Source: Planctomycetota bacterium (GTDB taxonomy: Bacteria; Planctomycetota; JACQVV01; JASMLP01). Taken from it: a stretch of DNA of 64,000 bases. Position numbers and translations under genes: made by a program. The stretch spans positions 1 through 64,000 of the forward strand of contig JASMLP010000069.1 of the NCBI GenBank assembly GCA_030748635.1, in the 5' to 3' direction. Below the pieces are notes generated by a model, which saw only the letters and a list, made by a program, of their open reading frames with translations, searched no databases and was not told the DNA's origin. This document shows, piece by piece, positions 59,463 to 64,000 of the stretch (the first letter of the stretch is position 1; the number at the start of each line of letters is the position of its first letter).

Positions 59463-60014
59463 TCAGTCGGTCGGGACCAGGGATCGGCTGGCTTCGGACA
59501 AGCTCGTGGCCAGTTCGACGACGCGTGCCTCGATCTCTTCGCTTACCAGGGCTCCTTCCTCGAAGGCGCTATAGGTCGCGTAGACAAATCGGGGCGCGAT
59601 CCAGGTCCGGAAATCGAGCATCAGGCTGTTGGCGATTCCGAGGATACTCATATAGCTGCGCTCGCCGCCTGCCGCGCAGAGGAATCCGACCACCTTGCCG
59701 GTGAACGCTTTTCCCGCGAGTTCGATTGCCGCTTTGGCCTGACCGCAGAGGGTGTAGTTGTAGATCGGGGTCGCGAGGACGATGCCGGACGCCCACTCGA
59801 CCGCCTCTCGGACCTCCACAGCGTGTGGGTGACCGTAGCATCCCCCCGCATCGCAAAACGGAAGTTCCCGTTCGGCCAGGTCGATCCAGCGGACCTCACA
59901 TCCGAGGCTTTCCAACTCTTTTCGGCAACGTTGGGCGAGAATCCGGCTGTGGCTCTGGGCTCGAAGGCTGGTTGAAAGGATGAGAATGGGGAGAGGGGAG
60001 GTAGATGAAGGCAC
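59463..60014 (-). CDS. NADPH-dependent FMN reductase / flavodoxin-like quinone reductase
   Basis: 183 residues of flavodoxin-like fold: ILILSTSLRAQSHSRILA (phosphate loop), ATPIYNYTLCGQAKAAIELAG (FMN isoalloxazine loop) and GKVVGFLCAAGGERSYMSIL. It reduces FMN, quinone or azo compounds with NADPH. The GTG start has GGAG followed by seven T's upstream. It lies 106 bases after the bchH-like gene in the same direction and may share its transcript. Confidence 0.9.
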   Translation of the reverse strand: MPSSTSPLPILILSTSLRAQSHSRILAQRCRKELESLGCEVRWIDLAERELPFCDAGGCYGHPHAVEVREAVEWASGIVLATPIYNYTLCGQAKAAIELAGKAFTGKVVGFLCAAGGERSYMSILGIANSLMLDFRTWIAPRFVYATYSAFEEGALVSEEIEARVVELATSLSEASRSLVPTD

Positions 60015-60120: not shown

Positions 60121-63100
60121 TTAAGTGGTGGAGAACTCGAGAGCGTCTTCGGTGCGCGTGGAGGTGGCCTCCAGAGTTTCGGAGATTCCTTCCGCGGGGT
60201 TCCATAGGGAACGGTCTCGAGCTTCGAGCAGCGTGTCGACCATGGCGCGGAAAGCTTCGGGATTGAGCTCGGCTAGCTGTTCGGCCATGGCTCGATCTTC
60301 GACGAAGGTTCGGGTGGTTTCGTCGAACACCCAGTCTTCGAGGCTTCGGGTGGTGGCCTGGAGACCGTAGAGGTTCTCCAGACGGGTTCGCAGTTCGGTG
60401 ACGCCTTCATACCCGTGGTCGATCATGGCGGAATACCATTTGGGGTTGAGCAGTTTCACCCGGGCCTCCCGCTGGCCCAACTCCTCGAGTCGGTCGATTC
60501 GGCCCAGAGCCGTGGTGGTGTCAGCGAGATAGACTTCGGCTCGACGACCGGTCTTCTCCTGAATCTGAAGGGAAAGCCCGCCAAGATAGTCGAAGTAGTG
60601 GTCCACATCGCTGAGGCCGATCTCCACCGAGTCCAGCGACTGGAGGACGCAGTCGGCGGTTCCGGTGAGTTCTCCGTAGAGATCCTGTTTGCGAACCAGC
60701 CCTTCACCGGAGACGAAGGCGAACGATTTGCGACTCCGGAAGATCTTGGCCAGTTCGGCATCGTTTTCCCAGGCTCCGGTATCGAGCGCGTAGTTGAGGT
60801 TGCCTCCGTAGGCTCCCGGCCCGTTGCCAAAAATGCGAAGACGGGCTTCCTGGGGAGAGAGTCCGGACGTTTCGAGAGATCGGGTCCGTTTTCGTATCCG
60901 ATTGGACGCTTCCGGTTCGTCCAGGTCGGCTACGGCTTGAACCGCCGAATCGAGCAGCGCCATCGATCCCGGAAAAACATCTCGGAAGATCCCGCTTACG
61001 GTCACCACGACATCGATTCGGGGGCGTTCAAGCTCCGCGAGAGGGATGGGGGTCACGACGCGGAGTCGACCGAGAGAATCTTCGGATATCCGGACCCCAA
61101 GGAGTTCGAAGGCGATGGCGAGGCTCTCTCCCCCGGTTTTGATGTTGTCCATGGCCCAGAGGACGAGCGAGACCGATTCGGGGAGTTCACCCCGATCTTC
61201 GACGCATCGGTCGAGAAAGCGTTTTACGGTGATCCGGGCCACGCTGCGAGCCGATGGAGAGGGGATATGGTCCGGGGAAAGTCCGTGGATATTGCGACCG
61301 GTGGGGAGCACCGAGGGGTTGCGCAGAGGATCGCCGCCGGGAGACGGGAACAGGTATCGACCACGAAGAGCGGCCCGAAGAGCTTCGAGTTCTTGACCGG
61401 CTGCGAGGTCCGAACGAAACCGTTCCAGAAAGTTGGCCAGGGATCGAAGGGATGCGACCGGTTGGCCAGGAAGGTCCTGAGCCAGGGTGTCGGGAGACTC
61501 GCCGGCTAACAGTTTCTGGACAATCGCGCGCGACTGATCTCCGAGCGATCGGATGCGTAGGGCAGCGGACGCGTCTCCTTTTCGGGCTCGATCCTGTAAG
61601 GTTTCGACCGGATCTTCTCCGGCTTTTTGCAACAGTCGAGTGATCGATGTGAGGCCCTGCTCGGGGCGATCGAAAGCCGCCGCATGGGTCATCTGTTCGA
61701 GTCGTTCTTCCCCTTTGGGATGTCGACCGAAAACGTGGAGCCCGCTGGCGATCAGTGTCCCTTCCAGTTCATACAGCGCGGTGAGCCAGCGATCGATCGC
61801 TCGATCTCGATCTTCTCCCTCCCGAGGCGTGGGGAGGTGGGCTCGATCCGCCGTGGCCAGGGCGGTCTCGAAGAGGGCGGTGCGTCGGGCCGGCTCGGAT
61901 TCACGACGGTAACTCAATGCGAGGTCTTTGAGGTTTGCGAGTTCCTTGTAGAGTCCGGCTTCGACTAGCGGTGGGGTCAGGTGACTGATCAGCGCCGCGG
62001 AGGAGCGACGACGGGCAATGGCTCCTTCGGCGGGATTGTTCACATTATAAACGTACAGGTTGGGTACATCTCCGATCAGTCGGGTCGGCCAGCAGTCGCC
62101 GGAAAGCCCGGCTTCCTTGCCCGGCATGAACTCCAGGGCTCCGTGGGTTCCCAGGTGGATGACTGCGTCCGCGGCAAAGACATCTCGGACGTAGGTCTGG
62201 TAGGCGGCGAATCCGTGCGTGGGTGAGGCGTCTCGTACGAAAAGGAGTTTCATCGGGTCGCCGTCGTAGCCAAATCCTGGTTGCGCTCCAACGAAGATGT
62301 TTCCGTACCGAACGGCGAAAAGGATCAGATCGGATCCATCCACGAAGAGAGCGCCCGGTGCGGCGCCCCAGTGCCGTTCGATTTCGGAGAGTCCCGCGGT
62401 GTGTTGGCGGTAAGTCGGTAGGTCGATGCGTAGGGGGTGGGTCTCGGTCAACTCCCCCTCGGCAGCACGTTCCATGTCTCGGAACTGCTCCAGAATCTTT
62501 TCCGGCGTTTCGGGAATGTCGCCCACATCGTACCCATCGGCTCGTAAAGTGAGCAGAATCTGATGAAGGCTCTGAAAGACGTCTAGATACGATGCGGTTC
62601 CGAGGGAGCCGGTTCCCGGAGGATATCGGAAGAGGCTGATAGCGATCTTCAGGTTTTCTCGGGGTTGGGTACGCAGACGGGTCCATCGCCGGACGCGTTC
62701 GGCAAATCGCTCCAGGTTGTCGGGATCGACGGAACGTCCGATCGGTTCGGTTTCGCTCCGACCCGGTCCGGCCAGGACCGTCGGTTCGATTCCTCCGTCG
62801 AGTTCGGGAAGAGCCACGTTGAGAGCGACCTGGACCGGATGAAGACCCTGGTGGCTACGGTGCCATCGGTCGAGCGTTTGGAAAGAGAGATGGATCGGTA
62901 CCAGATAGGGAACATCGAGCGGTCGTAGCGCTGCGATTGCTTCCTGAGGGCGGCTTTCGACGTGACCACCGACGAGCGGAAAACCGGCAAGGTTGACCAG
63001 GATATCGATGGCCAGCGGTTCCAGTCGGGCGAGTACGGGTCGATAGTCGAAGATCGAACCAAAAACGACCAAGGCGTTGAGTCGACGGCTCTCCAGGGCC

Positions 63101-63912
63101 TCGACAAGCGCTTCGATCGGAAGGGTGTCGTTGGCCAGGATCTGGCCTCTCAGGACCAGGATGGCGATTCGGGGGCGATGAATGCGCTCCGGCTCCAGCG
63201 ATTCGAGAGCCTGGATCAGTTTTTCAGGAGTCGAGTGGATCGTTCCTGTTTTGGGATGCCAGGCTCCGGTATCCGGATATCGGCGAGAAGCTCCGTAGGT
63301 CCCGGAAAGTTCTTGATATCCGTGGTGACGGTGGGCGACTCGAAGAATGAGATTGCGAATGTTCTCCGGGCTTCCTTCCATCCAGGCGGTGTAGCTCTCG
63401 ATGAAGGTTCGCATGTCCCCGAGTCGGCCGGGAATTAGGGCGAGGAGGCGAGGAAGGATGGTCAGGAAACGTTTCAGAAGTTTCTGGACCCGAGGATTCT
63501 GGAAAAAATGTCGGAGCGTAGAGGGAGCGGGGCCCCGTGATTGGGAAGGGCTCTTTTTCTTCGAGGTCTTTCTCATCGAGAAACGACCGACTCGTATCAG
63601 TTGCATGACTGCGCCGGACGAATGAAACGCCAGAGATGTGGTTTCGGGTCGCAGATGATCTCGGGCCAGTTCCACTAATCGTTGCGCGTGAGCTTCTTCG
63701 TGCAGGTGGGAGATCAGGACGAGGTCCGATTCGCTCAGAACCTGCGCGCAATGTTCACGATCCCGATTGCGCTGGACTTCAGATATGTCGATGACTTCGA
63801 AATGGATCGGAAAATGTGGCTGAGAGGAGGGATCGTTCAGTTGGTGGCAGGCTTGTTGAAGGGCGGCTGCACCCATCCCGTCCAGGGAGATGAGAGTCAC
63901 TCGAAAACTCAT
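60121..63912 (-). CDS. bchH: Magnesium chelatase large subunit (BchH/ChlH type)
   Basis: The 1263-residue length and motif order match BchH/ChlH rather than CobN. These include the N-terminal DUF3479-like region with WMEGSPENIRNLIL, YPDTGAWHP, VFGSIFDY in place of the family's FAGGLDF, LHPVQVALNVALPELDGGIEP, then GNIFVGAQPGFGYDGDP, HLGTHGALEFMPGKEAGLSGD and NNPAEGAIARRR. The subunit binds protoporphyrin IX and, with BchI/BchD, inserts Mg2+, the committed step of (bacterio)chlorophyll synthesis. BchI and BchD are not in the window. A CobN-like cobaltochelatase role cannot be fully excluded. It overlaps an upstream reading frame by ATGA, so it is probably inside an operon that continues beyond base 64000. 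Confidence 0.92.
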   Translation of the reverse strand: MSFRVTLISLDGMGAAALQQACHQLNDPSSQPHFPIHFEVIDISEVQRNRDREHCAQVLSESDLVLISHLHEEAHAQRLVELARDHLRPETTSLAFHSSGAVMQLIRVGRFSMRKTSKKKSPSQSRGPAPSTLRHFFQNPRVQKLLKRFLTILPRLLALIPGRLGDMRTFIESYTAWMEGSPENIRNLILRVAHRHHGYQELSGTYGASRRYPDTGAWHPKTGTIHSTPEKLIQALESLEPERIHRPRIAILVLRGQILANDTLPIEALVEALESRRLNALVVFGSIFDYRPVLARLEPLAIDILVNLAGFPLVGGHVESRPQEAIAALRPLDVPYLVPIHLSFQTLDRWHRSHQGLHPVQVALNVALPELDGGIEPTVLAGPGRSETEPIGRSVDPDNLERFAERVRRWTRLRTQPRENLKIAISLFRYPPGTGSLGTASYLDVFQSLHQILLTLRADGYDVGDIPETPEKILEQFRDMERAAEGELTETHPLRIDLPTYRQHTAGLSEIERHWGAAPGALFVDGSDLILFAVRYGNIFVGAQPGFGYDGDPMKLLFVRDASPTHGFAAYQTYVRDVFAADAVIHLGTHGALEFMPGKEAGLSGDCWPTRLIGDVPNLYVYNVNNPAEGAIARRRSSAALISHLTPPLVEAGLYKELANLKDLALSYRRESEPARRTALFETALATADRAHLPTPREGEDRDRAIDRWLTALYELEGTLIASGLHVFGRHPKGEERLEQMTHAAAFDRPEQGLTSITRLLQKAGEDPVETLQDRARKGDASAALRIRSLGDQSRAIVQKLLAGESPDTLAQDLPGQPVASLRSLANFLERFRSDLAAGQELEALRAALRGRYLFPSPGGDPLRNPSVLPTGRNIHGLSPDHIPSPSARSVARITVKRFLDRCVEDRGELPESVSLVLWAMDNIKTGGESLAIAFELLGVRISEDSLGRLRVVTPIPLAELERPRIDVVVTVSGIFRDVFPGSMALLDSAVQAVADLDEPEASNRIRKRTRSLETSGLSPQEARLRIFGNGPGAYGGNLNYALDTGAWENDAELAKIFRSRKSFAFVSGEGLVRKQDLYGELTGTADCVLQSLDSVEIGLSDVDHYFDYLGGLSLQIQEKTGRRAEVYLADTTTALGRIDRLEELGQREARVKLLNPKWYSAMIDHGYEGVTELRTRLENLYGLQATTRSLEDWVFDETTRTFVEDRAMAEQLAELNPEAFRAMVDTLLEARDRSLWNPAEGISETLEATSTRTEDALEFSTT

Positions 63913-64000
63913 GGGTCGAGTCTCGTCATCGATTCTATTCGGGTCGCGGCTTGAGAAGGATCCAGCGGATGAACAGGAACGAAGGGGAGATGATGGTGGG
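63909..64000 (-). CDS. C-terminal end of a gene upstream of bchH (partial)
   Basis: On the minus strand one frame is open from the window edge to a TGA that overlaps the bchH ATG as ATGA, the same 4-base coupling used elsewhere in this genome. About 30 residues are visible, ending IESMTRLDP. No family can be recognised from so little sequence. Confidence 0.4.
   Translation of the reverse strand, partial: HHHLPFVPVHPLDPSQAATRIESMTRLDP

Follow-up and report, generated by a model that had tools for sequence, protein, structure and literature searches.

A complete magnesium-chelatase-type operon in a planctomycete genome with no detected chlorophyll pathway or reaction centre

Magnesium chelatase is the three-part enzyme of plants and photosynthetic bacteria that inserts Mg into the chlorophyll precursor, and the locus described here raises the question of what such an enzyme does in a planctomycete. 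The window analysed (the 64,000 nucleotides at bases 1–64000 of the 65,863-base contig C69, JASMLP010000069.1) belongs to a 4.25-Mb draft genome of 217 contigs and 93.7% completeness, here called G000. Near the right end of the window lies bchH (60121..63912, minus strand), which encodes the large, porphyrin-binding subunit (H) of a magnesium-chelatase-type enzyme. The original prediction left three options for it: phototrophic potential, acquisition of bchH by transfer, or use of a BchH paralogue on another metal or tetrapyrrole.

The bchH reading frame is unbroken from its ATG to its stop codon and encodes 1263 amino acids. The BchH model TIGR02025 matches residues 4–1259 with 1164 bits, above its curated equivalog cut-off of 829; a second BchH model, PRK12493, gives 1199 bits, under its cut-off of 1300, and the best of the CobN models reaches 616 bits, under that model's cut-off of 822. 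The ChlH/BchH head domain DUF3479 (PF11965; 60.6 bits, cut-off 27.4) occupies residues 4–171 (63400..63903, minus strand), and the CobN/Mg-chelatase body, PF02514, spans residues 177–1241. Among solved structures in the PDB, Synechocystis ChlH is the top match with 852 bits, followed by CobN with 450 and HmuS with 341. By these matches the ORF codes for a magnesium chelatase H subunit that is full-length and intact, in agreement with the earlier claim of an undamaged gene with BchH/ChlH signatures over its whole length. No relatives of the locus were found among viral contigs.

The operon had also been proposed to extend out of the window, and bchD and bchI are indeed found directly beyond base 64000. 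The 3' end of bchD lies in the window (63909..64000, minus strand) and the gene extends to contig position 65615 (L002:5910-7616); together with the 3' end of bchI it fills the last 1.86 kb of C69. Its 568-amino acid product, the D subunit, has a VWA domain with the MIDAS motif DASGSM. The bchI gene runs off C69, and its 5' part closes contig C121, whose final 141 bases are identical to the first 141 of reverse-complemented C69, the pattern expected of an assembly-graph break, so the two parts of bchI were rejoined. The resulting BchI has 353 amino acids, with Walker A (GRRGTSKST) and Walker B (ILYVDE) motifs. The I/D and D/H junctions are both 4 bp ATGA overlaps, and G000 thus has a complete, translationally coupled bchI-bchD-bchH operon. 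The I and D proteins score under the curated cut-offs of TIGR02030 and TIGR02031, respectively (I was scored as a 317-amino acid fragment), and both genes also match cobaltochelatase-subunit models, under cut-off in the case of D.

The ATPase partners bear on whether the H protein might strip metal from heme (or chlorophyll) in the manner of HmuS, its homologue in the same superfamily, which removes iron from heme and has membrane-anchored homologues in other planctomycetes. The two would share a protoporphyrin or heme ligand, as predicted for the window protein. HmuS, however, works without ATP and has a Met-rich insertion as well as membrane anchors at its termini (PMC12583661), whereas no Met-rich stretch or membrane-like segment is present in the window protein, whose gene shares an operon with those of ATPase subunits. 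We therefore reject a de-chelatase of this type on architecture and regard it as very improbable; a chelatase that inserts metal remains the favoured reading.

The genes around the operon are of little help. A gene for an NADPH-dependent FMN reductase family protein (59463..60014, minus strand; PF03358) lies 106 bp downstream of bchH and is a possible operon member; it is not beside bchH in G005, a groundwater Planctomycetota MAG (NC_groundwater_1472; 95% complete, 8% contaminated) that with G000 makes up our two-genome sample of the class. Upstream of bchI are a small Cys-rich ORF and a divergent homocysteine S-methyltransferase gene. We note that a 120-amino acid ORF 57 bp upstream of bchI (L038:18567-18929) has a signal-like start and CxxC pairs and no Pfam match. 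The operon neighbours differ between G000 and G005, and this lack of conservation means that genomic context gives no functional hint. A neighbourhood made up of cobalamin-synthesis genes had been named as grounds against BchH, and the neighbours examined include no cobalamin genes; searching Rfam with the window sequence and five loci yielded no match at the gathering threshold, and so no cobalamin riboswitch near the operon.

In G005 the genes follow the identical I-D-H order, and its H and I proteins share 58% and 66% identity, respectively, with those of G000. Among 392 genomes sampled from the phylum, 47 have a chelatase large subunit of some kind and six pass the BchH cut-off, and four of these six matches (in G000, G005, G057 and G157) cover nearly the whole model. 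In G057 and G157 bchI and bchD are adjacent, on a contig other than that of bchH. The two-genome conservation weighs on the idea that the operon is a non-functional relic of lost phototrophy, to which one might be drawn because the sole remaining step of bacteriochlorophyll synthesis is the first committed one. The three genes are intact and coupled and the catalytic motifs are kept in two genomes as divergent as these, which implies selection, and a relic appears exceedingly unlikely; a working enzyme is the preferred interpretation.

A tree was built from purple bacterial BchH, cyanobacterial ChlH, eight CobN and the planctomycete homologues, with green-bacterial BchH/S/T left out. The window H pairs with that of G005 (100/100), this pair joins the H proteins of G057 and G157 (94/91), and all four lie inside the BchH/ChlH clade (100/100). 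Forcing the G000/G005 pair together with CobN makes the tree 207 log-likelihood units worse (p = 2e-6), so the CobN placement that was to be checked for is rejected. Joining the planctomycete proteins to purple BchH gives p = 0.056 and to cyanobacterial ChlH p = 0.27, in a sample whose phototrophs are purple bacteria and cyanobacteria. The planctomycete H proteins form a deep branch of their own, which may lie inside or outside the sampled phototroph branches. With the operon in both genomes of the class and this deep branch, the suggestion that bchH arrived by transfer finds no support as far as a recent event is concerned.

The predicted active site is that of the clade. A review lists H621, E625, Y651, Y653, E660 and H1174 of Synechocystis ChlH as essential or proposed-channel residues, with E660 catalytically essential (PMC13297055). 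Mapped via a cyanobacterial ChlH, their equivalents in the window protein are H590, E594, Y620, Y622, E629 and H1105; all are conserved, and all six positions are invariant in a six-sequence alignment. H590 and E594 lie in the motif HLGTHGALEFMPGK (residues 586–599; 62116..62157, minus strand), which is of the BchH/ChlH type, the counterpart in seven bacterial CobN sequences being H.GKHG.LEWLPGK; the E629 codon is at 62026..62028 (minus strand). The predicted catalytic residues are thus conserved in the window H, a statement about conservation rather than activity. The retention of every listed ChlH residue and of this type of motif, rather than the CobN type, speaks against the same machine serving another metal (Zn, Ni, Co or other) or another porphyrin such as coproporphyrin. 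Sequence leaves the metal unfixed, the superfamily members CobN and HmuS differ in the metals and rings that they handle, and the H proteins of planctomycetes are on a separate branch; we consider such a change of metal or ring unlikely but worth keeping in mind beside the favoured insertion of Mg into protoporphyrin.

No Photo_RC match is present in the 93.7% complete G000 draft, and the BchL model finds only a weak match there, under its cut-off. A joined query of BchM, BchL, BchN, AcsF, BchE, BchG and PufM, run against the four planctomycete genomes G000, G005, G057 and G157, gave just partial SAM-methyltransferase, radical-SAM and other generic-looking matches, with no BchL, BchN, PufM or convincing BchM; on a control plasmid it gave the expected BchM, BchL, BchN, BchE, BchG and PufM matches. 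AcsF, whose query contained an error towards its C-terminus and which had no match on the control plasmid, is the weakest of these negatives. Those radical-SAM ORFs that were inspected look by eye like ordinary B12-binding radical-SAM proteins. Flanking the operon, no photosynthesis gene was recognised along some 64 kb to one side or in the 19 kb examined to the other. Within the window the earlier observation that bchH stands alone in this respect holds for a sample of ten of the larger ORFs, which belong to ordinary families or have no match.

It is accordingly highly unlikely that G000 comes from a phototroph and that the draft assembly simply lacks its photosynthesis genes, even though the genome is incomplete and chlorophyll synthesis is what magnesium chelatase is otherwise known for. 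Searches of the four genomes found neither a reaction centre nor BchL or BchN, and the sister MAG comes from groundwater. We reject phototrophy, and with it the phototrophic potential raised by the original prediction, on the genes missing from both class members, G000 and G005. The bchIDH operon of G000 is not a photosynthesis operon.

A cobaltochelatase large subunit for cobalamin synthesis deserves the same scrutiny, since magnesium chelatase I and D subunits serve CobN in some bacteria (PMC9227772) and the I and D genes here match cobaltochelatase-subunit models. The aerobic cobaltochelatase CobN, which works with CobST or ChlID, resembles the planctomycete enzyme in its PF02514 superfamily and three-part design, but tree, scores and motif put the window H outside the CobN clade. 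The ring-building methyltransferases are scarce as well: a search with TP_methylase (PF00590), which covers cobalamin and siroheme methyltransferases, gave one weak match under the cut-off in G000 (G000:C1:121022-121567, L046) and one match in G005; in G057, G157, G038 and G006 it found nothing, and in G194 and G240 five matches apiece. This near-absence points to the lack of a cobalamin route and makes a CobN-type role unlikely; with the tree and the CobN model scores it leads us to reject that role, to which we give very little probability. We note that G000, with its single weak TP_methylase match, may lack even the usual RsmI or have a diverged form of it; G057 and G157 have no such match.

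G000 does have genes for HemA, B, C, E and N and for ferrochelatase (HemH), with a HemY-like flavin amine oxidase gene after hemE-hemN, and we infer from them that protoporphyrin IX should be available. With phototrophy and recent transfer set aside, what stands of the three original options is a non-photosynthetic use of a tetrapyrrole. The best explanation, which we hold to be probable, is that the operon encodes a protoporphyrin chelatase that is driven by ATP, inserts Mg (or another metal) and serves a non-photosynthetic purpose, its complete I-D-H enzyme probably functional. By analogy with the characterised enzyme, the I motor ring would hydrolyse ATP, and the D bridge would couple that energy to H via its MIDAS domain. 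H would bind protoporphyrin IX, a heme-pathway intermediate for which it would compete with ferrochelatase, and a divalent metal would be inserted near E629, most likely Mg2+ because of the conserved site. The product, Mg-protoporphyrin or another metalloporphyrin, may be used as such or by further enzymes, non-photosynthetically; cofactor, signal and porphyrin sink are guesses. Activity, metal, substrate and product use of the planctomycete BchIDH are all putative assignments made from sequence.

The BchIDH/ChlIDH of phototrophs (TIGR02025 for H, TIGR02030 for I, TIGR02031 for D) is thus the closest known system, being alike in its three subunits, H domain layout and clade, active-site residues, Walker motifs in I and MIDAS in D. 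It differs in that neither later chlorophyll genes nor a reaction centre were detected in G000, whose H is on the separate planctomycete branch and whose I (as a fragment) and D fall below the curated cut-offs. In a chelatase genotype survey (PMC9227772), species such as Spirochaeta thermophila and Thermodesulfovibrio yellowstonii have orphan ChlI and ChlD and neither a chlorophyll nor a B12 pathway; they resemble G000 in this but lack the large subunit that it has, and the survey's table has no entry with H that lacks both pathways. Likewise, titles, abstracts and selected passages of the open-access literature report no planctomycete Mg-chelatase operon like that of G000.

A complete, conserved Mg-chelatase in organisms where neither chlorophyll nor B12 genes are detected would imply that a metalloporphyrin has some other role, and this planctomycete class is a lineage in which Mg-chelatase function outside photosynthesis could be tested directly. 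The locus also urges caution in inferring phototrophy from bchH alone. More tentatively, and with somewhat less than even confidence, we suggest that some planctomycetes make Mg (or other metal) protoporphyrin for non-photosynthetic ends with a BchIDH lineage apart from those of the sampled purple bacteria and cyanobacteria. If that were true, the presence of Mg-chelatase would not signal phototrophy, and the enzyme might be older than chlorophyll.

Several observations concern related loci. The bchH and bchI-bchD loci of the two planctomycetes whose BchH falls in the clade of the window protein are at L039:15331-19215 and L215:10851-13696 in G057, and at L040:7682-11452 and L216:9037-11862 in G157, where an Hsp33 gene overlaps the bchI start. 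A second planctomycete large-subunit pair, in G038 (L043) and G194 (L042), is sister to CobN and lies beside an I/D-like gene; given five TP_methylases in G194 and none in G038, the latter may have a chelatase without a cobalamin pathway. Eight planctomycete CobN-superfamily proteins (L016–L021, L023 and L026) form a separate clade and have a C-terminal, and some also an N-terminal, membrane-like segment; a simple count finds no Met-rich insertion in them, and they might be HmuS-like heme de-chelatases. Finally, a Novosphingobium gene between bchB and bchL (L207:574-4125, NZ_CP140001.1) is annotated as cobaltochelatase CobN, yet its product falls in the BchH clade of our tree, and the plasmid matches H6, H8 and H9, which share its CobN label, may be misnamed in the same way.
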